Assembly (NCBI RefSeq): GCF_000981585.1
Contig: NZ_LN831776.1
Coordinates: 3,765,187 to 3,829,186 of the forward strand
Length of the DNA stretch: 64,000 bases
Direction of reading: 5' to 3'
Source of the DNA: Paenibacillus riograndensis SBR5
GTDB lineage: Bacteria > Bacillota > Bacilli > Paenibacillales > Paenibacillaceae
A program made the translations under genes and the position numbers. The notes under the pieces are model-generated. The model had not been told where the DNA came from, ran no database searches, and saw only the letters and a program-made list of their open reading frames with translations. This document shows positions 9,781 through 23,028 of this stretch, piece after piece. Each line of letters starts with the position of its first letter. Position 1 is the first letter of the stretch.

Positions 9781-10758
9781 ATGAAAACGTATACCATCGG
9801 TGTCGATTTAGGCGGAACCAATATCAAAGCGGCATTGTTTGATGCCAGCTTTAATGCAATCGGAGAAATCTCCTTATCTACGGAAGCAGCTAAAGGCCCG
9901 GCACATGTGCTGTCGCGAATCCGGCTGGCTGTACAGCAATTGACAGAAGACAAAGGGATCCCCCTTCAGAGCATAACCTGCATGGGGCTGGGCATTCCGG
10001 GTCTGCTTGATCCCGAGGAAGGAATGTCCCTGTTTTCACCCAACTTTCCGGGCTGGGAACACATACATATCGTGAATGAAATGAAGCTTTATTACGATTT
10101 CCCTATTTTTATTGATAATGATGTCAGGGTAAATCTGTATGGAGAATGGCAGTATGGGGCAGCAAGAGGGTACAAAAATGTGGTTCTGCTGACTCTGGGA
10201 ACGGGGCTGGGTTCTGGAATTGTGAGCGATGGTAAGGTAGTCTATGGAACCACGTTCAGTGCAGGGGAGATCGGCCATATGAACATGTTCAGACGAGGCC
10301 GTCCCTGCCGATGCGGCAGCTCGGGCTGTCTTGGAAGATACGTCTCGGCTGTCGGGATGGTGAACACCTTCACAGAAAAGCTGGCGGAAGGCAGGCCAAG
10401 CATCATTCAAGCCTGGACAAACGGTAACAATGGGCAGATAACCGCTCAAATGATCTCCGAAGCCTATGATCTTGAAGACCCGCTGGCTGCAGAGGTTATG
10501 CATGAGACCGGGGTCTTGCTGGGTTTTGGACTGGCGAATGTGATCAATCTGCTGAATCCGGAAGTCATTGTGGTTGGCGGAGGGATGTCTGCGGCCGGGG
10601 AACGGCTGCTGCACAGCGTCCGTGAAACGGTGAAGGACCATGCGCTGAAGCTGTCCGGGAGCAAGTGCAGTATTGTTCAGGCGGAGCTGGGGAGCCGGGC
10701 GGGTACGCTGGGTGCAGCGGTTTATGCGCACCGGCGGCTGCAAACGAAAAAACATTAA
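9781..10758 (+). CDS. ROK-family sugar kinase (glucokinase-like)
   Basis: The 325-residue protein has the ATP-binding DLGGTNIKAALFD at the N-terminus, the GEIGHM motif with the zinc-site His, and the ROK zinc-finger CRCGSSGCLGRY, then the C-terminal VVGGGMS. It lacks an N-terminal helix-turn-helix, so it is an enzyme and not a repressor. It most likely phosphorylates glucose or another hexose in the cytosol. The start at 9781 follows GAGGAGTGGGG. It stands alone between two operons. Glucose, mannose, fructose or GlcNAc specificity cannot be told. Confidence 0.88.
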   Translation: MKTYTIGVDLGGTNIKAALFDASFNAIGEISLSTEAAKGPAHVLSRIRLAVQQLTEDKGIPLQSITCMGLGIPGLLDPEEGMSLFSPNFPGWEHIHIVNEMKLYYDFPIFIDNDVRVNLYGEWQYGAARGYKNVVLLTLGTGLGSGIVSDGKVVYGTTFSAGEIGHMNMFRRGRPCRCGSSGCLGRYVSAVGMVNTFTEKLAEGRPSIIQAWTNGNNGQITAQMISEAYDLEDPLAAEVMHETGVLLGFGLANVINLLNPEVIVVGGGMSAAGERLLHSVRETVKDHALKLSGSKCSIVQAELGSRAGTLGAAVYAHRRLQTKKH

Positions 10759-10776
10759 AATCCGATTGAAATAGTA

Positions 10777-10805
10777 TTGATTAACCTTTGTGCTCATGCT
10801 ATTAT
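10777..10805 (+). promoter_or_regulatory. Sigma-A promoter of DUF427/IclR unit
   Basis: TTGATT, 17 bases, TATTAT. It lies 50 bases upstream of the first DUF427 gene. Confidence 0.6.
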
Positions 10806-10840
10806 CATTTAAAAATAAATGATTCTCTATTAATGATAAT
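10801..10840. promoter_or_regulatory. 9-bp inverted repeat overlapping the -10 box
   Basis: ATTATCATT (10801-10809) and AATGATAAT (10832-10840) are perfect inverted arms; the first overlaps the -10 box and the second abuts the ribosome binding site AAGGAG. A binding site for the nearby IclR regulator, or an mRNA hairpin next to the start, are both possible. Confidence 0.45.
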
Positions 10841-10854
10841 AAGGAGCTGAGAGT

Positions 10855-11676
10855 ATGGGTACGCAGGAACTGCAAGAGGTTAGGGAGCAACGCCCGCAGA
10901 AGCTGAATGTAAAGACCGACCGTATTGCCAAAAAGGTGTCCGTACGCTGGCGCGGGGAGATCATTGCTGAATCAACAGATGTGCTGCTGCTGCATGAACG
11001 GGGTCAGCTTCCGGTCTATTATTTTCCTGCGGGGGATGTGCGGAATGATCTGCTGACGGCAAGTGACCGGAAGAGCTTTTTCCCTTTGAAGGGGGAGGCA
11101 TCTTACTGGAGTCTTCAGCTGGGAGACGAAATCAGCGAGAATGCGGCATGGAGCTATGAGCATCCGATTCCGGGGCGTGAAGACATTGCGGGGTATTACG
11201 CTTTTTACTGGAACGCAGTTGACGGCTGGTATGAAGAAGAGGAAGAGATTTTTGTTCACGCCCGTGACCCTTACAAACGTATTGATGCGCTGCGCAGCTC
11301 ACGGCATATTGAGATTTATTTGAACGGGGTGAAGCTGGCAGACAGCACCCGGCCGGTGATTCTTTTTGAGACTGGTGTGCCTGTACGCTATTATCTGCCG
11401 GAGGATGATCTTAATACCGCACTCCTGGAATTTTCGGATTCCAAAACTGCCTGCCCTTACAAGGGACACGCTTCTTACCGCTCAGTGCGTATTCATGATG
11501 AACTGCACAAGGATCTTGTCTGGACGTATGCCTCCCCGATAGCGGAAATTCCGCAGATTGCCGGTTTGTTCTCTTTTTACAATGAACGGGTTGAAATATT
11601 TGTTGACGGAAAGAGACAGCCAAAGCAGGCGTGGTACCGCAGTGCTCTGGACTTCTTTAACGAGAACGAAATATAA
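10855..11676 (+). CDS. Double-DUF427 protein (copy 1)
   Basis: The 273-residue soluble protein holds two DUF427-like domains, about residues 20-135 and 140-255. Each carries the repeating pattern (LPVYYFP.. and VRYYLPEDD.., KG.ASYWS and KGHASYRS, ..WSYEHPIP and ..WTYASPI, IAGYYAFY and IAGLFSFY). It resembles the product at 21310 closely (EEEEEIFVHARDPYKRIDAL). DUF427 has no established reaction. The gene stands before the IclR regulator of a locus with a betaine-type transporter, urocanase- and ammonia-lyase-like enzymes, so a role in the same catabolic route is likely. It follows a good ribosome binding site (AAGGAG). Confidence 0.82.
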   Translation: MGTQELQEVREQRPQKLNVKTDRIAKKVSVRWRGEIIAESTDVLLLHERGQLPVYYFPAGDVRNDLLTASDRKSFFPLKGEASYWSLQLGDEISENAAWSYEHPIPGREDIAGYYAFYWNAVDGWYEEEEEIFVHARDPYKRIDALRSSRHIEIYLNGVKLADSTRPVILFETGVPVRYYLPEDDLNTALLEFSDSKTACPYKGHASYRSVRIHDELHKDLVWTYASPIAEIPQIAGLFSFYNERVEIFVDGKRQPKQAWYRSALDFFNENEI

Positions 11677-11719
11677 TTTTATATGCAGAGCATCTTGAAA
11701 CAAGAGGAGTCGTTGGCTG

Positions 11720-12505
11720 GTGCAAAAAATGAACGGGACGCAGACATTAAGCCGTGCGCTGGATATTCTATTCGCTTTGGCGGAAGAAAGCGGAACTCTG
11801 ACTGTGAGCGAAATCGCCCAGAAGGTGTCCATTCCGGAGAGCACGACATACCGCTTCCTGCAGACCCTGGAACAGAACGGAATTATAGAGCGGAGGGGGA
11901 AAAACCAGATTGGTCTGGGATTGCGCATCCTTGATCTTGCCCGCAGCCTGAACATGCAGTTTCAACGCGATCTGCTGCCGCTGGCGCTGCCTATTATGGA
12001 AAAGCTGACGGAAACTGTACAGGAAACCTCGGTGTTGTTTGTGCGCACAGGAGTGAATGCCGTATGCATTCAGAATGTAAAAAGCCGCGGTTTGATCCAG
12101 TTTTCAATCGAGAACGGGAGAATTCTGCCACTGCATCTGGGTGCATCAGGCAAGTGTATTTTGGCTTTTGAAAACCTCAAGGTTACGGAACGGATTATGT
12201 CTTCCCTTGAGAATGATCAGGAAAGAGCGCGCCTGAGCGTTGAACTTGAGCATATCCGCGCAAGGAACTACTGCATTACCAAAGGGGAAGTGGACCCTGA
12301 TGTATTCGCAATCGCTGCTCCCATTACCGATGGGCAAGGGCCTGTCATCGCCAGCCTGTCTGTTGCCGGCCCCAGCTTCCGCTGTAATAAAGAGCATGAC
12401 AAGGCAATTATTGCGAGGGTAGTGAGTGCTGCGGAAGAGTTGTCAGCTCTTATGGGGAATAAGCAGGGATTTAATCCCGACAAAAAGACTCAAATTAATA
12501 GTTGA
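11720..12505 (+). CDS. IclR-family transcriptional regulator
   Basis: The 261-residue protein has the N-terminal winged helix (LDILFALAEESGTLTVSEIA, then IPESTTYRFLQTLEQNG) and a C-terminal effector domain with LGASGKCILAF and VFAIAAPITD, the usual small-aromatic/organic-acid sensing fold of IclR regulators. A GTG start at 11720 follows GAGGAG; the ATG at 11729 is an alternative. It lies between the first DUF427 gene and the transporter-lyase operon and is the obvious local regulator. Its effector could be the transported betaine or its urocanate-like intermediate. Confidence 0.88.
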   Translation: MQKMNGTQTLSRALDILFALAEESGTLTVSEIAQKVSIPESTTYRFLQTLEQNGIIERRGKNQIGLGLRILDLARSLNMQFQRDLLPLALPIMEKLTETVQETSVLFVRTGVNAVCIQNVKSRGLIQFSIENGRILPLHLGASGKCILAFENLKVTERIMSSLENDQERARLSVELEHIRARNYCITKGEVDPDVFAIAAPITDGQGPVIASLSVAGPSFRCNKEHDKAIIARVVSAAEELSALMGNKQGFNPDKKTQINS

Positions 12506-12530
12506 CAATAAACATCACGGATAATATTAT
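12502..12530 (+). promoter_or_regulatory. Sigma-A promoter of transporter-lyase operon
   Basis: TTGACA, exactly 17 bases, TATTAT. It overlaps the IclR stop codon and lies about 165 bases upstream of the ATPase gene, leaving a long leader. Confidence 0.75.
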
Positions 12531-12574
12531 TAAAACACGATAATTGTTTATCACATATTAATAATCAATTGACT

Positions 12575-12637
12575 GACCATTCATATGGAGGTCTTGTTTT
12601 CTGCCAAACTGCGGAGGATAAGGCCTCCTTTTATTTT
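12575..12637 (+). promoter_or_regulatory. Candidate transcription attenuator in the operon leader
   Basis: GGAGGTCTT (12587-12595) pairs with AAGGCCTCC (12620-12628) in a nine-pair stem followed by TTTTATTTTT, a terminator inside the leader of the 12502 promoter. Upstream GACCAT (12575-12580) can instead pair with ATGG-GGTC sequences at 12585-12593, which removes the 5' arm of the terminator. A second GGAGG at 12613 can pair with the same CCTCC. This is the layout of an antiterminator/terminator switch, though it could also be a simple terminator for the IclR transcript. Confidence 0.45.
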
Positions 12638-12695
12638 TCATCAAAATCCTAGTTAAACAATCAGAATAATTAACTAAAGAGAGGAAGGATGCGGA

Positions 12696-13835
12696 ATGAC
12701 TGAAGCTGTTGCGGTGGAGTTCAGAAATGTAAGCAAGGATTACGGCTCCGGCAGTGTGCTGCGGAACTTTAATCTCACTGTGCCGAAGGGGCAAATCGTA
12801 ACGATAATCGGACCCTCCGGCTGCGGTAAAACAACACTGCTTAAGATGATCAACCGCCTGGTGGAGCCAAGCATCGGAAACGTGCTTGTAGAAGGAACAG
12901 ATATCGGCACTTTGGATGCGGTTGAACTAAGACGTGATATCGGTTATGTCATTCAGCAAATTGGGCTGTTTCCCCACATGACGATTGAAGAGAATATCTC
13001 CATTGTTCCGAAGCTGAAGGGAGCGGGAAAGACCGAGCGTAAAGAACGGGTCGATGCTTTGCTGAGTCTCATCGGTCTGCCGCCGGAGCAGTACCGCAAA
13101 CGGTATCCCCATGAATTAAGCGGCGGACAGCAGCAAAGAATCGGTGTCGCCCGGGCGCTCGCCTCTGATCCGTCGATTATTTTGATGGATGAGCCATTCA
13201 GTGCGCTGGACCCGATCAGCCGCGTACAGCTGCAAAAGGAACTGATCAATCTCAACCAGCGGCTGCACAAAACCATTGTTTTTGTAACGCATGATATTGA
13301 TGAAGCGCTGAAAATTGCAGACCGGATCATCTTGCTGAATGAAGGTGAGGTGGTGCAGAACAGCACCCCGGAAGAGCTTTTAGCTCATCCGGCTAATGAT
13401 TTTGTAATTGAATTTGTGGGACAGGAGCGGTTTCAGCCTGCTCTTCCGCAAGGTTCGGCCCACCATATTATGATCGACGGGCTGTCGATTGGCAGTGAAT
13501 CCCCGATATCGGAGGCACTGGAGGTGATGCGGATCAACCGTGTGGAGGGACTTGCAGTCATTGGGAAATGGGGGGATCTGCTCGGCATTGTCGGCATCGG
13601 GGAAATCGGCCAGCACTTGCCGCTGGACAGCAGGCTGAAGGTTGGCGATCTCCTGCAGACAGACACGGTTGCGCTGCAGGAGCATACCCCTCTCTCCGAA
13701 GTATTCGAGCTGATGCGGAGAAGTCCAATTCTGCCGGTGGTCGATGATGATAACCGTCTAATCGGCACGGTAACCCGTTCCTGCGTCATAGAAGCGCTTG
13801 GACGCCATCTGCACCGGGAGGTGAGCAGCGCATGA
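12696..13835 (+). CDS. Betaine/choline-type ABC importer ATPase with CBS domains (OpuCA/EgtV-like)
   Basis: The 379-residue ATPase has Walker A GPSGCGKT (39-46), signature LSGGQQQRIGVARAL, Walker B IILMDEPFSALDP and HDIDEAL, followed by two CBS domains at about residues 250-310 and 315-375. This build is that of OpuCA and of the ergothioneine importer subunit EgtV; the CBS pair usually senses ionic strength or nucleotides. It overlaps the permease gene by four bases. Because it heads an operon of urocanase- and lyase-like enzymes, a catabolic substrate with a trimethylammonium group fits better than pure osmoprotection. Confidence 0.88.
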   Translation: MTEAVAVEFRNVSKDYGSGSVLRNFNLTVPKGQIVTIIGPSGCGKTTLLKMINRLVEPSIGNVLVEGTDIGTLDAVELRRDIGYVIQQIGLFPHMTIEENISIVPKLKGAGKTERKERVDALLSLIGLPPEQYRKRYPHELSGGQQQRIGVARALASDPSIILMDEPFSALDPISRVQLQKELINLNQRLHKTIVFVTHDIDEALKIADRIILLNEGEVVQNSTPEELLAHPANDFVIEFVGQERFQPALPQGSAHHIMIDGLSIGSESPISEALEVMRINRVEGLAVIGKWGDLLGIVGIGEIGQHLPLDSRLKVGDLLQTDTVALQEHTPLSEVFELMRRSPILPVVDDDNRLIGTVTRSCVIEALGRHLHREVSSA

Positions 13836-14482
13836 ACCACGTATGGGATACTCTGGTTGCCGACTGGCCGATGATCCTTGATAAGACCGGGGAGCATATG
13901 TACCTCTCACTAGTCTCGGTCTGCATCGCCGGACTGATTGCCATTCCGCTCGGCATTTATCTGACCAGCCGTAAAAGCCTGGCGAACAGCATCATTACGA
14001 TCATCTCTGCGGTCCAAACCATTCCCAGTCTGGCTCTGTTCGGATTCATGATTCCGCTGGTCGGGATTGGAACCACACCCGCCATTATAGCCTTAACGTT
14101 ATATGCCCTGCTGCCGATGCTTCAGAATACTTATGTGGGAATCAGTGGGGTCAATCCGGCTTTGATTGAGGCGGGCACGGGAATGGGCATGACCAGATGG
14201 CAGATGATGACTATGATCCAACTGCCGATTGCCCGCAGCATTATCATGGCTGGAGTCCGGCTTGTAGCCGTGCAGACGATCAGTCTGGCCACCATTGCCA
14301 CCTATATCGCTGCCGGAGGCTTGGGTGATATTATCACGCGGGGGATTGCCATGATCAATACGGTTACGATTATGGAAGGTGCGATTCCGGTATCCCTGCT
14401 CGTCATTTCCGTCAACTTCATCTTGCTGCTGCTCAACAGGGTGCTTACCCCCAAAGGGCTGCGTCATTTGAATAAATTCTAA
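13832..14482 (+). CDS. Betaine/choline-type ABC importer permease (OpuCB-like)
   Basis: The 216-residue membrane protein has about five to six membrane segments and the permease loop EAGTGMGMTRWQMMTMIQLP, the EAA-type contact with the ATPase. Its size fits OpuCB. Only one permease gene is present, whereas osmolyte OpuC systems usually have two (OpuCB and OpuCD), so here it should form a homodimer. The ribosome binding site lies inside the ATPase gene (GGGAGG). Confidence 0.87.
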   Translation: MNHVWDTLVADWPMILDKTGEHMYLSLVSVCIAGLIAIPLGIYLTSRKSLANSIITIISAVQTIPSLALFGFMIPLVGIGTTPAIIALTLYALLPMLQNTYVGISGVNPALIEAGTGMGMTRWQMMTMIQLPIARSIIMAGVRLVAVQTISLATIATYIAAGGLGDIITRGIAMINTVTIMEGAIPVSLLVISVNFILLLLNRVLTPKGLRHLNKF

Positions 14483-14507
14483 TCATTTATGGAGAGGGGA
14501 TTCAATC

Positions 14508-15446
14508 ATGACCACAGATAAACCCGCGAATACACTGGCAAGAAAAGGAGGCAGGCTTCTTTTAACAGCAGCTCTTCTTCTTAGTGCGGCGCTGGCAGCG
14601 GCAGGCTGCTCCAACTCGAAGGCTTCCGGCAGCTCGGATACGATTGTGCTTGCAACCAAAGGTTTTGCCGAATCCGATATTTTAGCCAATGCCTTCAAGC
14701 TGCTGATCGAGGAGGATACGGATCTGAAAACAGAGGTCAAAAAGCTCGATAACACGCTGCTCTGGAATGCGATTGATACCGGTGATGTGGATGCATACGT
14801 GGAGTACAGCGGCACGGCGTTGATTAATATTCTGAAGCTTGACCCGGAGTTTGATCCGGACAAAGCTTTTCAGACTGTAGTAGCCCAGCTCAAAGAGAAG
14901 AATAATCTGACTGCCCTTGAGCCGCTTGGCTTCAACAACACTTATGTTTTTGCTGTTCGCAAGGAAACCGCAGAGAAGTACGGACTGACGACGGCTTCGC
15001 AATTAGCGGAGAAGTCCGGCGAGCTGATCTTTGGCTCCAGTGAAGAATTCCTGAACCGAGCGGATGCCTGGCCTTATGTAGAGAATATTTATAAACCGAA
15101 ATTCAAGGAGATCAAATCGATCCAGAATAAATCACTGCAATATCAGGCCATTGACCAGAAGCTGATTGATGTGATGCTCCCTTACTCCACGGACAGCCAA
15201 CTGCTGACAAGCGGTCTGGTGGCACTCGAAGACGACAAGCATGTGTTCATTCCCTACGATGCTTTTCCGATTGTCCGCGGCCAGACTTTGGAGGAGCACC
15301 CGGAGCTGAAGGAAACACTGAACAAGCTGGCCGGCAAAATTGACGAGGCCACAATGCAGGCACTTAACGCTGAGGTCGAGCAGGAGCAGAAACCGGCAAT
15401 TGACGTAGCCAAAGAATGGCTGAAGAGCCAGGCGTTGATCAAATAA
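14508..15446 (+). CDS. Betaine/choline-type substrate-binding lipoprotein (OpuCC/EgtU-SBP-like)
   Basis: The 312-residue protein has a lipoprotein signal (LLLSAALAAAGC, lipidated Cys 34), so it is anchored on the outside of the membrane, then the quaternary-ammonium binding fold with VLATKGFAESDILA, the DAYVEYSGTAL strand and PYVENIYKPKF. This family binds glycine betaine, carnitine, choline or, in EgtU, ergothioneine in an aromatic cage. It delivers substrate to the two preceding subunits. The exact ligand needs binding data. Confidence 0.85.
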   Translation: MTTDKPANTLARKGGRLLLTAALLLSAALAAAGCSNSKASGSSDTIVLATKGFAESDILANAFKLLIEEDTDLKTEVKKLDNTLLWNAIDTGDVDAYVEYSGTALINILKLDPEFDPDKAFQTVVAQLKEKNNLTALEPLGFNNTYVFAVRKETAEKYGLTTASQLAEKSGELIFGSSEEFLNRADAWPYVENIYKPKFKEIKSIQNKSLQYQAIDQKLIDVMLPYSTDSQLLTSGLVALEDDKHVFIPYDAFPIVRGQTLEEHPELKETLNKLAGKIDEATMQALNAEVEQEQKPAIDVAKEWLKSQALIK

Positions 15447-15497
15447 TTGAGTTAACTGAGCCCAGACCATTCACAAGAATGAAAGGAGTCAACACTT

Positions 15498-16865
15498 ATG
15501 AGCGATGTTAAACGGCAATTGGCGCTTGGGGCGATGATGTTTTTTCCGGCAGGGGAGCATATCTCCAGTTGGAGGCACCCGGGTTCCGAAGCAGCGGCAC
15601 TTCTCGATTTCGATTATTACAAAAGGATTGTCCAGACGGCGGAGCGGGGACGGTTCGACATGTTCTTTTATGCCGATGAGCTGTATGTATGGGACCGCTT
15701 TGAGTCCGGGATCAGTCATGCCAACAGTATCCGGCCGGAGCCGTTCACGCTGCTGTCCGCCCTGGCGGCCGTGACGACCCATATTGGACTAGCCGCGACG
15801 ATTTCAACTACTTACAACGATCCTTATCATATCGCCCGCAAGCTGGCTTCGCTTGATCATCTCAGCGGAGGCCGGGCCGCATGGAATATTGTCACTTCGC
15901 AGACAGATGAAGAGGCCCGGAATTTTGGCAAGGAGCGGCATCTGCAGCATGAGCTGCGCTATGAACGCGCCAAGGAATTTGTAGCGGTTACCCAAGGCTT
16001 GTGGGATAGCTGGGAAGAGGATGCGTGTGTTTTCGACAAGGAGAGCGGTTATTTTGCTGACAAAGATAAGCTCCATAACCTGGATTTTGAAGGGAAGCAT
16101 TTCAAAGTTAAAGGGCCGCTTAATATTACCCGGCCTCCGCAGGGCTATCCTGTACTAATTCAGGCGGGGGCTTCTGAGGCCGGAAAAGAGGTTGCTGCTG
16201 CCACAGCAGAAATTGTGTTCGCCCCGGGTGGAACACTTGCCGAAGGCCGGGCGCTATATGCCGACATTAAGGGCAGACTTGCAAAATACGGACGTACAGC
16301 GGATGAATTGAAGATCTTTCCCGCCTTGATGCCGGTTATCGGGATAACGGAAGAGGACGCAGCGGAGAAGCTGTCAGTCATTGAGAACCTGACTCCAGAC
16401 CGTCTGGCGCTGGATTTGCTGTCCCACTATATCGGGACCGATGTCTCCAGCTATCCGCTGGATGAACCTTTGCCCTTCCTGCCGGAGGAAGAGGGCTTCA
16501 ACCAGAGCAAAACCGGTTTGCTCAAAATCCGCAGCATTCTGGAACAGGAAAATCTGACGCTGCTGCAGCTGGCCAAGCGGGTAGCGGTGAAGCGGGGCAT
16601 TGCCGGAACTCCTGAACAAATCGCCGATCATATTGAAGAATGGTTCAAAAGCAAGGCGGCGGATGGCTTCAACATCGCCTTCACCCATCTTCCCGGAGCG
16701 CTTGATGATTTCGTCAATCTGGTAGTTCCCATACTCCAGCAGAGGGGCCTTCTGCGCACAGAGTACGAAGGCACAACGCTGCGTGCACATCTTGGACTGA
16801 ACACACCGGCAAGCCGTTATGCCAAGATCGGGATCAGCCCTGGAGCGGGATCGGAGCAGCATTAG
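15498..16865 (+). CDS. LLM-class flavin-dependent monooxygenase (NtaA/SnaA family)
   Basis: The 455-residue protein belongs to the luciferase-like TIM-barrel oxygenases that use reduced FMN from a separate reductase. Family motifs include FFYADELYVWDRFESG, EPFTLLSALAAVTTHIGLAATIST, the SLDHLSGGRAAWNIVTS stretch and PVLIQAGASEAGKEVAA. Such enzymes cleave C-N or C-S bonds by oxygenation. It lies in the operon between the importer and the urocanase homologue, with AAAGGAG before the start. In a histidine-betaine pathway it could act on the thiol, methylthio or trimethylamine product; that is inference. Confidence 0.85.
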   Translation: MSDVKRQLALGAMMFFPAGEHISSWRHPGSEAAALLDFDYYKRIVQTAERGRFDMFFYADELYVWDRFESGISHANSIRPEPFTLLSALAAVTTHIGLAATISTTYNDPYHIARKLASLDHLSGGRAAWNIVTSQTDEEARNFGKERHLQHELRYERAKEFVAVTQGLWDSWEEDACVFDKESGYFADKDKLHNLDFEGKHFKVKGPLNITRPPQGYPVLIQAGASEAGKEVAAATAEIVFAPGGTLAEGRALYADIKGRLAKYGRTADELKIFPALMPVIGITEEDAAEKLSVIENLTPDRLALDLLSHYIGTDVSSYPLDEPLPFLPEEEGFNQSKTGLLKIRSILEQENLTLLQLAKRVAVKRGIAGTPEQIADHIEEWFKSKAADGFNIAFTHLPGALDDFVNLVVPILQQRGLLRTEYEGTTLRAHLGLNTPASRYAKIGISPGAGSEQH

Positions 16866-16903
16866 CTTCTGCATTAACACGAAGACAGAAAGCGGGGAGA
16901 GAC

Positions 16904-18568
16904 ATGGGCAGAATTACGGCCGCCAGAGGCGGGGCACTGCGCTGCAAAGGCTGGAGACAGGAAGCGCTGCTGCGGATGCTGGAGAACGTGCTGGAGAATG
17001 GCGAGAACCAGAGAGAGCTGATCGTATATGCTTCTCTCGGTAAGGCGGCCCGCAATTGGCCTTCCTATCTGGCGATCGTCGATACACTGAAGAGACTGGA
17101 AGAGGATGAAACACTGGTGATCCAGTCCGGGAAGCCGATCGGCGTCTTCAAGACCCATCGCCAGGCTCCGCTGGTGGTGATGGCGAACTGCAATCTGGTC
17201 GGAAGATGGGCGACCAGCGAGAACTTTTATGAGCTTCAGGATAAAGGTTTGATTATTTGGGGCGGGCTGACTGCAGCCGCCTGGCAGTATATCGGTTCAC
17301 AAGGTGTGATTCAGGGCACCTATGAAATATTTCAGAGTATTGCCCGGCTCCACTTTGGCGGCAATCTGCGCGGGCGCTTCATCCTGACTGCCGGGCTTGG
17401 GGGAATGGGCGGAGCGCAGCCGCTCGCAGGCACGTTGGCCGGTGCAGCCATTCTCTGCGTCGAGGTTGCAGAGGAACGGATCGATAAGCGGATTGCCGCC
17501 GGATATTTGCAGCGGAAGACAGACAGCCTGGATGAGGCGCTGGCCTGGATTGAGATTGCCCGGCGCAGCGGAGAGAGCGTCTCCGTCGGCTTGCTTGGGA
17601 ATGCGGCTGAGGTCTACCCTGAGCTGCTGCGCAGAGGGGTTCAGCCGGATGTAGTCACGGACCAGACTTCTGCGCATGATTTGCTCTATGGTTATATCCC
17701 TGAGGGATATACTCCGGCTTCTGCTGCGGCAGCCCGCAAGGAGGATCCGGCAAGGCTGCAGGCTGCCGCCGGAGCATCCATCGCGCTTGAAGTGAAGGCG
17801 ATGCTGCAGTTCAAGGAGCGGGGGGCCATCGTTTTCGATAATGGCAACAACATCCGCTCCCAGGCGGTTCAGCATGGTGTGCCTGACGCGTTTGAGATCG
17901 ATATCTTTACCGAAGCGTTCCTGCGCCCGCTGTTTGCCAAGGCCATCGGGCCCTTCCGCTGGATCGCGCTCAGTGGCGAACCTCAGGATATCCGCATCAT
18001 TGACGAGCTTATTCTGCAGGAATTCAGTGACAATGAAATTGTAACCAACTGGATTAAGCTCGCGAATGACCATATTCCGTTCGAAGGCTTGCCTGCACGG
18101 ATCGGCTGGTTTGGACATAAGGACCGCAGCAGGCTGGCTGTAGCTGTTAATGAGCTGGTCCGGGAAGGCAGGCTTGCCGGACCGGTAGCTTTTTCCCGCG
18201 ATCATCTGGACGCGGCGGCAATGGCACATCCCAACATTATGACGGAACGGATGAAGGATGGCAGCGATGCGGTCTCGGACTGGCCGCTCTTAAATGCGAT
18301 GCTGAACTGCTCTTCCATGGCGGATCTGGTAGCCATTCATTCCGGCGGCGGGGGTTATGCCGGCTACATGACTAGTGCAGGAGTGACCATCGTCGCTGAT
18401 GGAACGGCTGATAGCGGGCTGCGTCTGCGCACAGCGCTTGACAATGACACAGGTCTAGGGGTGCTGCGCTATGCGGATGCCGGCTATGAGACGTCTCTTG
18501 CAGAAGCTGCTAACAAAGAAATCGACCGGGTTGACACCGGACGATACGACGACATTCCGGTGGATTGA
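16904..18568 (+). CDS. Urocanate hydratase homologue (probable thiourocanate-type hydratase)
   Basis: The 554-residue protein has the length and fold of urocanase, with the NAD-binding signature LTAGLGGMGGAQPLA and the HSGGGGYAG region near the C-terminus. Urocanase adds water to urocanate using tightly bound NAD as an electrophile. True HutU occurs with HutH, HutI and HutG; none of these is here, and the partners are a DUF917 protein and a MIO-less lyase. That set matches the hydratases of ergothioneine and S-methyl-ergothioneine breakdown, so thiourocanate or its S-methyl form is the likelier substrate. Start chosen at ATG 16904 after GGGGAGAG. Confidence 0.85.
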   Translation: MGRITAARGGALRCKGWRQEALLRMLENVLENGENQRELIVYASLGKAARNWPSYLAIVDTLKRLEEDETLVIQSGKPIGVFKTHRQAPLVVMANCNLVGRWATSENFYELQDKGLIIWGGLTAAAWQYIGSQGVIQGTYEIFQSIARLHFGGNLRGRFILTAGLGGMGGAQPLAGTLAGAAILCVEVAEERIDKRIAAGYLQRKTDSLDEALAWIEIARRSGESVSVGLLGNAAEVYPELLRRGVQPDVVTDQTSAHDLLYGYIPEGYTPASAAAARKEDPARLQAAAGASIALEVKAMLQFKERGAIVFDNGNNIRSQAVQHGVPDAFEIDIFTEAFLRPLFAKAIGPFRWIALSGEPQDIRIIDELILQEFSDNEIVTNWIKLANDHIPFEGLPARIGWFGHKDRSRLAVAVNELVREGRLAGPVAFSRDHLDAAAMAHPNIMTERMKDGSDAVSDWPLLNAMLNCSSMADLVAIHSGGGGYAGYMTSAGVTIVADGTADSGLRLRTALDNDTGLGVLRYADAGYETSLAEAANKEIDRVDTGRYDDIPVD

Positions 18569-18600
18569 AATCACCGGCTTTCTTACAGGAGGAGATCGAT

Positions 18601-19707
18601 ATGAGAGAACTGACCAGGGATGATGTCTTCGCCGCTGTCAAAGGCGGCTCTGTATTTGCCAGCGGCGGCGGCGGCTGGGTCGATCACGGATTGGAGATCG
18701 GCCACGCTGCTTTAAGCATAGGACGGCCTAAGCTGCTGTCTGTAGAGGAACTGCCGGACGATGCGATTATTCTGACTTGTACCGCGATTGGTGCTCCGGC
18801 CGGCCGGGACTGGCAAATGCTCGGCAAGGATTATATCAGAGCTGTTCAATTGGTTATTGATCACTACGACGGCAAGATTGCCGGAGTGATGACACCGCAA
18901 AACGGCATGTCCAGCACGATTAACGGCTGGCTTCCCGCAGCGGCATTGGGGCTTGCTGTTATTGATGCGACCGGTGATATCCGTGCGCATCCTACCGGCA
19001 AAATGGGCTCGCTTGGCCTAGCCTCGTCCATTGATTATGAGACTATACAAGCGGTGGCCGGCGGCAGACCCGAGCTTGGCAGCTACATCGAGCTGGTCGT
19101 CAAGGGAACCCCCGCACGAACCTCCAACATCCTGCGCACCGCATCGGATATGGCGGGCGGATTCATTGCAGCGGCACGGCATCCGCTTCCGGCCAAGTAC
19201 ATTAAGGAGCATGCCGCGCTGGGTGGGATCTCGATTGCCCTTGAACTGGGTCAAGCGATTATTCAGGCAGAACCGGAAGGCCCGGAAGCGGTCTTAAAGG
19301 CGGTGGTACGCAAGACGAAGGGGAAGATCCTTGGGAGAGGTAAGGTGATTTCCAAAAATGTCCGTTACTCCGGCGCCTTCGATATCGGCACCATCGATGT
19401 GGAGGTCGCGAAAAATGTCTTCAGGCTGCATGTGATGAATGAATATATGGCAGTCGATGACCGCAGCAGCAAACGTCTGGCTACTTTCCCGGATGTCATT
19501 ACCACAATCGATGCGGCTACGGGCCTGCCGGTCAGCGTTGGTGATGTGGTGGAAGGAATGGAGCTGGCGGTGTTCGCCATTGATAAATCCCGAATTCCTC
19601 TAAGCGCAAGTGTGAAGGACCCCACTGTGTATCCCGAGGTGGAGGAAGTGCTGGGCATAGATCTGCAAAGCTATGCCTTTGGCAAGGAGAAGCAGAATTA
19701 TGCTTGA
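18601..19707 (+). CDS. DUF917 family protein (S-methylthiohydantoin desulfurase family)
   Basis: The 368-residue protein starts at ATG 18601 after a perfect AGGAGG; an in-frame TTG at 18565 overlapping the previous stop is less likely. It shows the DUF917 N-terminal pattern VFASGGGGWVDHGLEIGHAAL, the GAPAGRDW and TPQNGMSSTINGWLPAAALGLAVIDATGDIRAHPT regions (shown in parts) and the C-terminal half typical of the family. DUF917 proteins are now named S-methylthiohydantoin desulfurases, metalloenzymes that release methanethiol in S-methyl-ergothioneine breakdown; others are linked to hydantoin use. Its neighbours here, urocanase and MIO-less lyase homologues, are exactly the earlier steps of that route. 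Confidence 0.82.
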   Translation: MRELTRDDVFAAVKGGSVFASGGGGWVDHGLEIGHAALSIGRPKLLSVEELPDDAIILTCTAIGAPAGRDWQMLGKDYIRAVQLVIDHYDGKIAGVMTPQNGMSSTINGWLPAAALGLAVIDATGDIRAHPTGKMGSLGLASSIDYETIQAVAGGRPELGSYIELVVKGTPARTSNILRTASDMAGGFIAAARHPLPAKYIKEHAALGGISIALELGQAIIQAEPEGPEAVLKAVVRKTKGKILGRGKVISKNVRYSGAFDIGTIDVEVAKNVFRLHVMNEYMAVDDRSSKRLATFPDVITTIDAATGLPVSVGDVVEGMELAVFAIDKSRIPLSASVKDPTVYPEVEEVLGIDLQSYAFGKEKQNYA

Positions 19708-21295
19708 GGAGGCAGCTAATTCGGGAGGTTCAGCCACAGGGATTGCAGGAAAAGTCCTTCAGGACTTGAATCCCCTCGTTCTGGATGGGAACAATCTGAC
19801 GATCGCAGATGTGGACAGTGTAGCCCGCGGCCGCAGGGCTGTTGTTATAGACGATGGAGCCTGGCAGCGGATGGAGGCGGCCCGCAGGACGATTTTTGCT
19901 GTTGCTGACCAAGGCCTGCCTGTATATGGACTGAACCGGGGAGTCGGCTGGAACAAGGATCTGGAGATCAGCCCGGATTTCTTCGAAGCCTATAACCGCA
20001 ATTTGCTGCTGTCGCATAGTGCAGGGGTCAAGCCGGAGGCAGATACAGATGTGGTCCGGGCAGTCATGCTTGCCCGCTTGAACGGTTTGCTGACCGGGGC
20101 AGCCGGTGTACAGCCGGAGCTTGCCGGACGTTATGCTGATTTTCTTAACCTCGGCATCCATCCCGTTCTTCCGCTTCGCGGTTCTGTAGGCGCGGCAGAT
20201 ATTACTTCGATCTCCCACATTGGGCTGGCGATGATCGGCGAAGGCGAGGCCCATATGGACGGCAGCCGGGTTCCGGCGCTGGAAGCATTGAAGGCCGCAG
20301 GGCTGGCACCGCTGCGGCTTGGCCCCAAGGACGGACTGGCGGTGGTCAGTTCCAACGCGCTCTCAGCCGGGAATGGCGCGCTGGCGCTGTATGATATGGA
20401 AAAACTGCTGGAGACGGCTGACAGAATATATGCTTTGTCGCTTGAAGCCATTCGTGGCAATGTCAGTCCGCTGGATGAAGCGGTGCACCGCAAGCGCCCT
20501 TTTCCCGGCCAGTTGAAAAGTCTGGGAATTGTTCGAAGCAGCTTGGCAGGAAGCGACCTATGGACAGACTACAACCCCGAATCTCTGCAGGACCCGCTGA
20601 GCTTCCGCGATGCCTGCCAGATTCACGGTGCCGCCCGCGATGCCCATGATTTTACCTCCCGGCAGCTGGTGCTCCATCTGAACAGCTCGGATGATAATCC
20701 GTGTGTGCTGTCGGACGAACAGCGGATTGTATCCTGCGCCAATTATGATCCTTTGTCCTGGACGCTTGGATTCGAGATGCTGGGCAGTGCTCTGCACCAT
20801 GTTTCCAAAAGCTCCTGCCACCGCATCATCAAGCTCGGAGATCCGCGTTTTACCGGTTTAACCCGGTTTCTGACGGCTGACACCAGCCGCTCCGTAGGCT
20901 TTTGCACCGTGCAGAAGACCGCGACGTCGCTGGATGCCGAAATCCGGCATCTGAGCAATCCGGTTTCCGCCGATTATCTGTCGCTGGCCGGAGAAATCGA
21001 GGATCATGCCGCCAACTCGCCGTATGTCGTGTCCAAGACAAGAGAGATTCTTGACCGGCTCACCTATATCCTGGCCATTGAACTGCTGCACGCGGCGCAA
21101 GCGGTTGATCTCCGGGGCGGTCTGACCTTGGGTCATGCCTCATGGGCCGGTTACAAGAGCTTAAGAAGGGCGGTGCCTTTTTTGAGTGAAGACCGCAATC
21201 AGAGTGAGGATATCGAACGTGCTTACCGGCTGCTAAAAGATGGAACATGGCTAAACGATATTCATCTAGCGCTGAACACAAAAGCATCAGTTTAG
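19700..21295 (+). CDS. Histidine/phenylalanine ammonia-lyase homologue lacking the MIO triad
   Basis: The 531-residue protein has the ammonia-lyase fold (YGLNRGVGWNKD replaces YGvNTGFG; NGLLTGAAGVQPEL; GLAMIGEGEA; LHLNSSDDNPCVL). The loop that normally holds the self-cyclising Ala-Ser-Gly reads GSVGAADITSISH at residues 161-173: Ser is Ala and Gly is deleted, so no MIO cofactor can form. Ergothionase, which eliminates trimethylamine from ergothioneine, is a lyase-fold enzyme that works without MIO because its leaving group is already charged. With a betaine-type importer, a urocanase homologue and DUF917 in the operon, a betaine 1,2-elimination is the best inference. Start ATG 19700 has AAGGAG upstream and overlaps the previous gene by eight bases. 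Confidence 0.85.
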   Translation: MLEEAANSGGSATGIAGKVLQDLNPLVLDGNNLTIADVDSVARGRRAVVIDDGAWQRMEAARRTIFAVADQGLPVYGLNRGVGWNKDLEISPDFFEAYNRNLLLSHSAGVKPEADTDVVRAVMLARLNGLLTGAAGVQPELAGRYADFLNLGIHPVLPLRGSVGAADITSISHIGLAMIGEGEAHMDGSRVPALEALKAAGLAPLRLGPKDGLAVVSSNALSAGNGALALYDMEKLLETADRIYALSLEAIRGNVSPLDEAVHRKRPFPGQLKSLGIVRSSLAGSDLWTDYNPESLQDPLSFRDACQIHGAARDAHDFTSRQLVLHLNSSDDNPCVLSDEQRIVSCANYDPLSWTLGFEMLGSALHHVSKSSCHRIIKLGDPRFTGLTRFLTADTSRSVGFCTVQKTATSLDAEIRHLSNPVSADYLSLAGEIEDHAANSPYVVSKTREILDRLTYILAIELLHAAQAVDLRGGLTLGHASWAGYKSLRRAVPFLSEDRNQSEDIERAYRLLKDGTWLNDIHLALNTKASV

Positions 21296-21309
21296 AAAGG
21301 GTGGAGACT

Positions 21310-22140
21310 ATGGCTCATTTGGATCCCCAGTGGTCTTTACGGGACCCTAACCGGGAAGGCTGGCAAATCCGGGCGGAGATCAGCCCGAAGTGGATTCGTG
21401 TTAAATTTGGCGGGGATTATATCGCAGACAGCAAGGAGGTAATGGTTGTAACGGAAACAGGACGGCTTCCCGTGTATTATTTTCCGCTGAAGGATGTGAA
21501 CGCTGCTCTGTTCCAGCCTTCGGAGAAGCTGGCGACCCATCCACAGAAGGGAATCCAGACCTTTTGGGATATTACCAGTGGTGGCCGTACGGCCAGGAAT
21601 GCAGTGTGGACCTATTCCGGGCCTCAGCCGGAAGCCCATTTTTTACACGGCTATGTTTCCTTTTCGTGGAGTAAAATGGATGGATGGTTCGAGGAAGAGG
21701 AGGAGGTCTTTGTCCATGCCCGTGACCCCTACACGCGGGTGGATGCCATACCGGCTTCGCGCCATGTGCAGCTTGAAGTGAACGGGATAATCGTAGCCGA
21801 CAGCCGCCGTCCGGTGATTCTGTATGAGACAGGGCTGACACCACGCTATTATCTGCCGGCTGAAGACGTGCGGCTTGATCTGCTGCAAGAGAATCCGAAC
21901 AGCACCCGCTGCCCGTATAAGGGAATCGCTACCTATTGGACTGCTGCAGTCAACGGCCGCGAGTATGAAGACCTTGTATGGAGCTATAAAGAGCCGCTGC
22001 CGGAGGTCCATGAAATAGCGGGTCTGCTGTGCTTCTACCATGAGGCTGCGGATGCGCTGTATGTAGATGGGATCAAGTGGTCGCTGAACAGTGAAGAACG
22101 ACTGCCTTATCGTGGAAGCGAAGCCATCTATATAAGTTGA
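21310..22140 (+). CDS. Double-DUF427 protein (copy 2), 3' end altered by an inserted element
   Basis: The 276-residue protein is a paralogue of the product at 10855, with two DUF427-like units (LPVYYFPLKDV and TPRYYLPAEDV; EEEEEVFVHARDPYTRVDAI). Start ATG 21310 follows AAAGGGTGGAG; the upstream extension lies in the lyase gene. It is the last gene of the operon. Its final codons and TGA stop lie inside the left terminal repeat of a 218-bp palindromic element, so the native C-terminus may have been replaced by Ile-Tyr-Ile-Ser or shortened by a few residues. Function of DUF427 is unknown; gene neighbourhood ties it to the lyase pathway. Confidence 0.82.
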   Translation: MAHLDPQWSLRDPNREGWQIRAEISPKWIRVKFGGDYIADSKEVMVVTETGRLPVYYFPLKDVNAALFQPSEKLATHPQKGIQTFWDITSGGRTARNAVWTYSGPQPEAHFLHGYVSFSWSKMDGWFEEEEEVFVHARDPYTRVDAIPASRHVQLEVNGIIVADSRRPVILYETGLTPRYYLPAEDVRLDLLQENPNSTRCPYKGIATYWTAAVNGREYEDLVWSYKEPLPEVHEIAGLLCFYHEAADALYVDGIKWSLNSEERLPYRGSEAIYIS

Positions 22141-22344
22141 ACTTAAAGAATTCATAAAAGGGAAGAAGTGCGGAGGGGAAGTTTGGAACTGGAAGAGCGG
22201 TAGCGTCCGCCTTTGTCACCGGATTTCAACCGCAAAAGGCGGTTCCAATCAAGAAATCTGGGGACAACAGCGGCTGGAAGTCCAAACATTCCCCGCAGTG
22301 ACGACCATGCCCACAATGTAAAACTAAAGTTCAACTTATATAGA
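22127..22344. mobile_element. 218-bp MITE-like palindromic element with 18-bp terminal inverted repeats
   Basis: TCTATATAAGTTGAACTT at 22127 recurs in inverted form at 22327-22344 (18 of 18 bases). Inside, further pairing is possible: TTGTCACCGGATTTC with GAAATCTGGGGACAA around an inner AACCGC-aaaa-GGCGGTT hairpin, and a GCGG-GGGAA-GTTTGGA-type motif occurs on both sides in opposite orientation. No open frame is present. The left repeat overlaps the stop codon of the DUF427 gene. Between this element and the next start at 22492 only a short hairpin (GCCGGT...ACCGGC near 22380-22412) was seen. Confidence 0.7.
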
Positions 22345-22491
22345 CAGTTGAGTGAGTGAGAAATGAATGATTTCAGAAGCCGGTCTATCCTTAATATAGG
22401 GGTGGCCGGTTTCATTATGTCTCCTGAATGATGTATCTGCCTCCGTAGCATGCTATGCTATATATTATTACGATTAAGCAGGAGGCCAAAG

Positions 22492-23028
22492 ATGAAACGA
22501 GATATTCAGAACGTGCCTTACGGCTACGAGCCGCCGGCTGCCGAACGCAAGGGAACCCTGGTATTCTATGATTCGTTTGAGCATATTACTGATCGGGATC
22601 TGGAGCAGGCAGCCCGCACGGCAACGGAGCGCAAATTCACCAAGCTGGTGCTGTATCCGCTGCATGAAGAAACGGTTAGACGGATGAGCAAGGAGCCGGT
22701 GGCTGCCTTTTACAAGCGGGAGGACCGTCTGCATGAATGGAAAAGAGAGCAGGGACGCCCGTTCATTATCGTGGAGAGTCTCGAAGGGAAGCGGAAGAAG
22801 TATACGCCGCTGGACTCGGCGCTGCGCCATATCAGCGAAGTGTATCCATCGCCGTATTTTCTCTACCTCACTCCTGAAACGGCCAACCAGTTTGCTTCTT
22901 ATGCTTCTTTTGAGGAGTGGATTGTCAAGCTGCGCCTGATTCTGTCTGCGGCTCCCGCTTATGTGCACCCGCGTCTGGAGAAGTTCCGTCACCGCTGGGA
23001 TATCGCCGGGGAAGAGAAGCGGGAATAA
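22492..23028 (+). CDS. Hypothetical protein (178 aa)
   Basis: I do not recognise this protein. The ATG at 22492 follows AGGAGG. The product is soluble and mixed alpha/beta, with a beta strand TLVFYDSF, a repeated KLVLYPLHEETVRRM strand-helix unit, RPFIIVESLEGKRKKYTPLD and PYFLYLTPETANQFASY. The alternation of strands and helices suggests a small Rossmann-like domain, perhaps nucleotide-binding, but no catalytic motif is clear. It stands alone between the palindromic element and a convergent membrane protein gene. Confidence 0.65.
   Translation: MKRDIQNVPYGYEPPAAERKGTLVFYDSFEHITDRDLEQAARTATERKFTKLVLYPLHEETVRRMSKEPVAAFYKREDRLHEWKREQGRPFIIVESLEGKRKKYTPLDSALRHISEVYPSPYFLYLTPETANQFASYASFEEWIVKLRLILSAAPAYVHPRLEKFRHRWDIAGEEKRE

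Follow-up and report, generated by a model that had tools for sequence, protein, structure and literature searches.

A predicted sulfur-acquisition operon for ergothioneine catabolism in Paenibacillus riograndensis, preceded by a conserved attenuator-type leader

We analysed a 64,000-nucleotide stretch of Paenibacillus riograndensis SBR5 (contig NZ_LN831776.1, positions 3,765,187 to 3,829,186; hereafter the window, whose own numbering is used below), in which an operon encodes the predicted import and breakdown of ergothioneine, a sulfur-containing antioxidant that is abundant in fungi. We estimate a probability of about two in three that ergothioneine catabolism here serves to acquire sulfur and ends after desulfurisation. 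An OpuC-type importer would take up ergothioneine or a close derivative. As predicted from family membership and established pathway knowledge, ergothionase would convert ergothioneine into thiourocanate and trimethylamine, thiourocanate hydratase would form thiohydantoin-5-propionate, and the desulfurase would release sulfide and leave hydantoin-5-propionate. The window-type operon would end at this step, with sulfur as the gain; the hydantoinase and carbamoylase that lead on to glutamate in the canonical operons are not encoded in it. The operon shares the first three enzymes of the Ert pathway, which runs from ergothionase through thiourocanate hydratase and thiohydantoin desulfurase to ErtD and ErtE. 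The last two are missing from the window operon, which has in addition a luciferase-like monooxygenase (LLM), a pair of tandem DUF427 proteins, a separate importer of the OpuC type and a leader RNA.

The enzymatic core

The hydratase (16904..18568, + strand) reached 993.4 bits with the thiourocanate hydratase model NF058530 (cut-off 930), as against 799.9 bits with the homologous S-methyl model NF058531 (cut-off 880) and 719.7 bits with HutU. Its nearest PDB entry was 7ned (974 bits), labelled in the PDB as urocanate hydratase, which we take to be thiourocanate hydratase. The desulfurase (18565..19707, + strand), a DUF917 protein whose domain is now named S-Me-THD in Pfam, scored 607.9 bits with the thiohydantoin desulfurase model NF058529 (cut-off 440) and 313.2 bits with its S-methyl homologue NF058532 (cut-off 450); alignments of homologues favour ATG 18601 as its start. 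For the lyase (19673..21295, + strand), the nearest solved structure was ergothionase 6s7j at 486.7 bits, whereas the best HAL match gave 225.5 bits, and identity was 47.9% to TdETL versus 32.0% to the HAL/PAL side. At 21 of 26 compared sites, the W-N-K-D stretch among them, the lyase and TdETL have the same residue (shared residues: Y85, N88, R89, W93, N94-K95-D96, H115, Q306, R312 and E443). It reads GSVG-AA-DI where HAL presumably has GSVG-ASG-DL, and therefore lacks the methylidene-imidazolone (MIO) triad, at whose place the HAL structure 7tqr shows X.

The two model scores, together with the proximity of the lyase to 6s7j, place the operon in the ergothioneine branch; the S-methyl branch was rejected, both proteins being below its cut-offs (799.9 < 880 and 313.2 < 450). 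Judged from its sequences, the core is the established ergothioneine route of ergothionase, thiourocanate hydratase and thiohydantoin desulfurase, and the prediction that ergothioneine is imported and degraded, and that trimethylamine and sulfur are set free, has good support. A preliminary description of this DNA had proposed degradation of ergothioneine, its S-methyl form or another histidine betaine, by way of an ammonia-lyase homologue without MIO residues. The loss of these residues and the ergothioneine route stand by family membership, while the S-methyl form finds no support in the scores. The kinship with true HutU and HutH that would contradict the proposal was judged from scores rather than a full phylogeny and was not borne out: the scores place the hydratase nearest the thiourocanate model and 7ned, and the lyase nearest 6s7j. 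As also described before, hutI and hutG were not found in the operon by a Pfam search of its proteins, the rest of the genome not being searched. The same gene order, including the IclR regulator gene, recurs in three other loci (L044, L045, L047) and, without the IclR gene, in Neobacillus sp. SuZ13 (L138), so that the array is not a product of chance.

Some related loci carry further enzymes. Two aromatic-lyase homologues (PF00221), MIO-less by eye, lie in tandem at L120:15895-18699 and also in L149 (Paenibacillaceae bacterium CAVE-418), after two LLM copies, an importer and DUF427a; their substrate may be a different aromatic betaine. An MIO-less aromatic-lyase homologue also occurs near a tandem DUF427 gene at L160:2416-4803 and L176:4386-9369 (an Acidimicrobiales and a Streptosporangiaceae genome, respectively). 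Inspection by eye, without family searches, adds a TauD-like gene in L160, and an IPNS-like gene, a cysteine-dioxygenase-like cupin and an LLM piece in L176. A gene of the nucleoside-hydrolase family (PF01156) is present in the ergothioneine operons of two genomes (L039:9942-10901 and L066:14417-15391), where its product could free a glycosylated form.

Two operon types and the end of the pathway

Among 295 Paenibacillaceae genomes, ergothionase at an identity of at least 48% was found at 33 places in 27 genomes, and stretches of 12 to 20 kb were inspected around the 32 loci other than the window. These revealed two operon types. In the canonical type, an amidohydrolase (ErtD-like hydantoinase) and M20 peptidases (ErtE-like carbamoylase) come after ergothionase. 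The window type combines the LLM and tandem DUF427 with a separate importer (OpuCA, OpuCB and binding protein), mostly without hydantoinase or carbamoylase. The types differ according to the leader RNA described below: the hydantoinase was present in 4 of 18 leader-bearing and 14 of 15 leader-less loci, the LLM in 14/18 and 0/15, and DUF427 in 13/18 and 0/15. In L055, the one canonical locus tested with NCBIfam models, one M20 protein was ErtE over the cut-off (541.6 vs 520); the nearest model to its amidohydrolase was ErtD, yet the score was under the cut-off (491 vs 650). Four loci are hybrids (L052, L054, L058, L059); the amidohydrolase of L054 is ErtD over the cut-off (748), and L052 and L054 combine LLM, leader and ErtD-type hydantoinase in one operon.

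Seven genomes that hold only the window type (G000, G189, G115, G152, G032, G190, G219) were searched for ErtD and ErtE. ErtE over the cut-off was found in none of the seven; among three other genomes searched, G257 and G208, which served as controls, had it and G212 did not. With NF058539, one of two ErtD models (the other being NF058538), no ErtD over the cut-off was detected in the seven genomes (best scores 217 to 317 bits), and only G257 passed among the other three. G212, in which neither protein exceeded its cut-off, has a leader-less ergothionase locus (L039). Because the ErtD cut-off is strict, the bit scores are more telling: in G152, G032 and G219, reported as 99 to 100% complete, the best ErtD-like protein reached about 217 bits, whereas that of the canonical genome G208 scored 499.5. 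These three genomes had no full-length ErtE homologue (partial matches, 45 to 47 bits) and no HyuB.

Several observations weigh against an ending at desulfurisation. The ErtD cut-off is also failed by the canonical proteins of L055 and G208. The window genome itself (G000) has, elsewhere, adjoining genes at 1845821-1848465 for an ErtD-like (317 bits) and an ErtE-like protein (368 bits), both under the cut-offs, as well as three HyuB proteins, and may thus go beyond desulfurisation. Moreover, the 14 leader-bearing, hydantoinase-less loci fall into one clade of the ergothionase tree, which also holds L138 and two loci that lack the leader, L039 and L048; the contrast between operon types is thus partly one of ancestry. 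Hydantoinase loss tracks this ancestry, and separate gains of the leader (L052/L054 and L058/L059) retained the hydantoinase. The leader label requires five changes on the tree, at least four of them forced, and Fisher values overstate the independence of the loci and genomes, which are related by descent.

These data could also be read as ordinary nitrogen and carbon catabolism, in which a hydantoinase and a carbamoylase encoded elsewhere finish the route to glutamate and the leader senses a non-sulfur signal. The gene pair and HyuB proteins of G000, the union of LLM, leader and ErtD-type hydantoinase in L052/L054, and the leaders that stand before genes without a sulfur role (see below) would all fit this proposal. 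However, both proteins of the G000 pair are below the curated cut-offs, G152, G032 and G219 lack a full-length ErtE homologue and HyuB, and most strong leaders with annotated neighbours precede LLM or sulfonate-type genes. We therefore consider it unlikely and favour the acquisition of sulfur as the function of the operon.

Structure and covariation of the leader RNA

A promoter-like site (TTGACA-17-TATTAT, 12502..12530, + strand; 11/12 matches) lies ahead of the importer genes, and sites resembling it were seen by eye in many related upstream regions. It is followed by an inverted repeat (12526..12565, + strand; arms 12526-12543 and 12548-12565), a candidate operator, possibly of the IclR protein, whose second arm (TTATCACAT.TTAATAAT) is kept in many window-type loci. 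Downstream, an antiterminator hairpin of the form GRYY-NA-CCA-loop-UGG-A-GGYC (12571..12593, + strand) overlaps the 5' arm of an intrinsic terminator (12587..12628, + strand). In the antiterminator, P1 (GRYY:GGYC) and P2 (CC(A):(U)GG) are separated by an NA/A internal loop, and the 3' arm also serves as the 5' arm of the terminator. Transcription would begin 5' of the leader, and formation of the 23-nt antiterminator hairpin would exclude the terminator, both structures being backed by covariation. The promoter-like site, the attenuator, the absence of hydantoinase and carbamoylase and the link to sulfur genes did not figure in the preliminary description.

In an alignment of 28 rows, 96.4% of the antiterminator cells were paired, compared with 90.0% in shuffles and at most 54.6% in slid versions, although the antiterminator is favoured over the slid controls because it was drawn from the same sequences. 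In an alignment of 35 rows the figure was 92.7%; six of the seven pairs changed on both sides, and covariation was 0.416 versus 0.263 (0/500 shuffles as high). For pairing, 0/500 shuffles were as high in either alignment. Two of five measures were no better than shuffles in the 28-row alignment (both-side change, 54/500; further pair types, 303/500), whereas all five were better in the 35-row alignment (at most 5/500). Compensatory changes were observed in 10 of 17 pairs of the terminator. For the complete leader of the window the predicted fold is the terminator (z −5.19), and the minimum free energy fold of the truncated leader is the antiterminator, with a stability that is not unusual (z −1.48). 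When four truncated leaders were folded, those of the window, L045 and L219 formed P1 and P2, while L264 formed another hairpin. Only the L045 structure was clearly more stable than shuffles (1/200); for the other three, between 19 and 26 of 200 shuffles were as stable, which, with the different fold of L264, counts against the favoured reading. The antiterminator pattern followed by a T-run has a single match in the 64 kb window. Taken from its sequence, the leader (12571-12628) is an attenuator with two mutually exclusive conserved structures, one of them a terminator, and attenuation is predicted.

Rfam 15 gave no match at the leader up to E 10 when run over positions 10500-22600 of the window. 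The best overlaps on other copies were the MS2 operator hairpin on L263 (18.7 bits; gathering 40) and mir-3121 on the L287 element (24.4 bits; gathering 108). The antiterminator at L263:7160-7178 shares with the MS2 operator hairpin a bulged A close to the loop, which may be no more than a similarity of shape. Many loci also have, after DUF427a, a terminator-like match of 39 nt that contains part of the leader motif, for example at L045:5226-5264 and L116:8585-8623.

Two earlier accounts bear on the novelty of the leader. A 2010 survey describes ABC-leader attenuators of bacilli, one of them before an alkanesulfonate transporter operon (PMC2965389). As far as that description goes, this is likewise an attenuator with an antiterminator before sulfonate transport genes; its account of the ABC-leader in section 9 does not mention ergothioneine operons. 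In Bacillus methanolicus, leaders annotated as PyrR precede sulfonate, methionine and MFS transporters (PMC4342826); one of these stands before a sulfonate uptake operon, as our leader element does elsewhere, whereas the Rfam scans gave no PyrR match on the leaders analysed here. Either of these, as they are described there, may be the same element, in which case the leader would be a rediscovery, with a wider regulon and a better anatomy.

Distribution of the leader and its downstream genes

The leader was present in all 17 ergothionase loci that have a window-type importer, LLM or DUF427 gene, as well as in L046, and in none of the other 15 ergothionase loci. Among 23 Firmicutes DUF427 loci, 13 of which overlap with the family genome set, 18 had a strong leader; it was found in none of the 43 non-Firmicutes loci searched out of 57. 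The association is broken by DUF427-importer units without the leader (L150, which has the ergothioneine core, L179 and L190) or with a weak one (L168, L198).

A genome-wide search of 280 family genomes with stricter filters gave leader matches at E ≤ 0.01 in 58 genomes, 27 of them with at least 40 bits. Of these 27, 15 carry the LLM clade described below. In nine of the other 12, the downstream genes are of the LLM or sulfonate-type ABC kind: G003, G022, G035 and G067 have sister LLM operons, G217 and G231 have operons of the SsuC-SsuB-SsuA-SsuD type, and G014, G143 and G270 have further such genes. Of 14 sister LLM loci, 10 matched model R2 at E < 1e-3, six of them outside the seed; the match in L223 is at the end of the LLM gene, unlike those of the other sister loci, which precede the operon. 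In G196, a match of 38.2 bits precedes an OAH/OAS sulfhydrylase gene (675.6, cut-off 495.1). A role in sulfur metabolism is harder to reconcile with the strong leaders of G138 (before an ECF-type transporter and peptidases), G212 (before a nitroreductase) and G109 (before unannotated frames), or with the strong extra copies in G226 (72.5 bits) and G256 (69.2 bits), at L267:10094-11353 and L268:1632-4151, which precede enolase-superfamily genes without an evident link to sulfur. The stretches taken around leader matches without an ergothioneine or sister-LLM locus numbered 20 and cover part of such matches. At L124:10203-10922, a PnuC-type transporter gene lies immediately 5' of a leader, downstream of which come an LLM gene and one for a binding protein.

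Outside the family, Neobacillus sp. SuZ13 showed 11 matches genome-wide, of which seven are credible by sequence. Two of these stand before DUF427a, one before OpuCA, one about 700 nt before the gene of a sulfate-transporter binding protein (390, cut-off 288), one before SsuA (255.8, cut-off 163.5) followed by the start of SsuD, one before a glutaredoxin-like gene and a cystine-like binding protein, both under the cut-off, and one before a peptide-type binding protein. In the six SuZ13 leaders with a 3+4 layout, P2 was paired in 24/24 cells and P1 in 17/18, and the NA of the internal loop reads GG in two. The copy at L138:20128 was found by a local search and missed by the whole-genome search. 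The presence of the same leader elsewhere, before sulfonate genes and genes for a sulfate-binding protein and a sulfhydrylase, makes it probable that the leader reports sulfur status, which it would do via some factor.

A broader proposal would make the leader a short attenuator RNA class, as yet uncurated, that senses sulfur status and controls a Bacillales sulfur regulon, and that captured ergothioneine catabolism in Paenibacillaceae and Neobacillus; there, catabolism would serve sulfur only, the LLM would free sulfur-modified ergothioneine, and the DUF427 proteins would be the first ergothioneine-linked members of their family. We regard this combination as tentative, and lean against it as a whole.

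The importer

The importer comprises an OpuCA/ProV-type ABC ATPase with a CBS domain (12696..13835, + strand; TIGR01186, 394.5 bits, cut-off 326.6), an OpuCB-type permease (13832..14482, + strand; PF00528) and a betaine-type (OpuAC-type) substrate-binding lipoprotein with aromatic-cage motifs (14508..15446, + strand; PF04069). The PDB relatives of the binding protein are OpuBC, EgtUC and ProX, and an alignment against the residues given in PMC9732360 revealed that the aromatic cage and the carboxylate-binding residues are kept. This is the class and cage of EgtU (PMC9732360), whereas in the window the permease and the binding protein are separate and three signature residues are changed: a motif alignment, mapped without the EgtUC sequence, places Phe, Tyr and Phe at EgtUC Gly244, Phe293 and Tyr337. 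The G244F substitution in EgtUC causes an approximately 100-fold loss of ergothioneine affinity (PMC9732360); Phe at this place therefore counts against plain ergothioneine as the import ligand. The importer thus resembles EgtU in the class of its binding protein and departs from it at the three diagnostic positions. The imported ligand is probably a betaine, and it is not certain to be plain ergothioneine. In the same alignment, the N-T-Y cage motif is missing from the binding proteins encoded next to canonical operons in L050, L051, L065 and L066, so that their ligand may be no betaine.

The monooxygenase and the DUF427 proteins

The FMN-dependent LLM monooxygenase of the NtaA/DmoA family (15498..16865, + strand) scored above the TIGR03860 cut-off (544.8 vs 279.7). 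It belongs to a clade found in 16 of 295 Paenibacillaceae genomes, all 16 of which also have ergothionase and DUF427; copy numbers were obtained by scoring the best five candidates per genome, and those of G226 and G256 are lower bounds. A class-wide search of 398 genomes found the clade only in G000, G032 and G115, and ergothionase in six; since these three genomes are already in the family sample, no new positive was added. The nearest folds are the organosulfur enzymes BdsA and CmoJ (VIA), and, as compared with the BdsA/DszA and CmoJ/YtnJ monooxygenases, the window LLM forms a clade of its own that is linked to ergothionase genomes. Members of a sister clade are encoded in operons that also hold NMT1-like binding proteins, parts of the SsuB/SsuC kind, and genes for TauD or MFS proteins.

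Each of the two tandem DUF427 proteins, a (10855..11676, + strand; two beta-tent domains) and b (21247..22140, + strand; PF04248, two stretches), holds two DUF427 domains, and the genome has no other DUF427 protein. Homologues of protein b begin with MAH.DPQW, and alignments favour ATG 21310 as its start. Domain and fold are those described for 3djm (PMC4287342), whereas here the domain is doubled in each of two paralogues that are tied to OpuC-type importers and ergothionase in Firmicutes. The preliminary description had named the monooxygenase and the DUF427 proteins as new parts of the pathway; co-occurrence supports their link to the ergothioneine core. Our literature search, which missed the original papers on the degradation enzymes, found no report of DUF427 or of this LLM clade in ergothioneine metabolism.

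The LLM might make sulfur-modified ergothioneine, as an S-alkyl or sulfonate form, accessible to the core enzymes. The DUF427 proteins might bind or process an ergothioneine-type ligand; EamA transporters of some relatives, absent from the window operon, may export leftovers. A related proposal, compatible with sulfur acquisition, holds that the imported ligand is itself a sulfur-modified ergothioneine (S-methyl, S-conjugate or sulfonate) that the LLM converts first. It is consistent with the missing EgtU signature, the organosulfur relatives of the LLM, the genes of the sister operons, and the LLM copies that lie beside importer genes, without an adjacent ergothionase, in ergothionase-bearing genomes. 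The hydratase and desulfurase, in turn, are outside the S-methyl families, and we place this proposal somewhat short of even odds. A bacterial ergothioneine sulfonate catabolic pathway, reportedly described by Yan et al. in 2022 (cited in PMC13405746), possibly concerns a related substrate.

N-dealkylating enzymes, EDTA and NTA monooxygenases among them, belong to the NtaA/DmoA family, and the LLM gene is immediately 5' of the core genes; this enzyme could thus demethylate the released trimethylamine, for a gain of nitrogen or one-carbon units. Such a role appears improbable, given that duplicates of the LLM beside importers without ergothionase are not what a downstream enzyme would lead one to expect, and that its nearest folds and sister operons are organosulfur ones.

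Layout of the operon

The ten genes of the operon all lie on the + strand at the coordinates first described (10855-22140), and Pfam searches bore out their families. Apart from the genes given above, the operon includes that of the IclR-family regulator (11720..12505, + strand; PF01614 and PF09339). The tight spacing noted before applies to most of the array, with gaps of −49 to +51 nt for the called starts; the exception is the 190 nt between the end of the IclR gene at 12505 and the start of OpuCA at 12696, where the leader lies. On the 3' side of the operon, a 192-aa open frame (22450-23028) had no Pfam match at E ≤ 1e-10.

Biological meaning

If the sulfur-acquisition reading is true, soil bacteria would use ergothioneine as a sulfur source in itself, and not just as a nitrogen source. 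The operon also offers testable candidates for two unassigned parts, the LLM clade and DUF427. The leader, for its part, would define a Bacillales sulfur regulon with an element absent from Rfam, and its sensor would be a concrete target.

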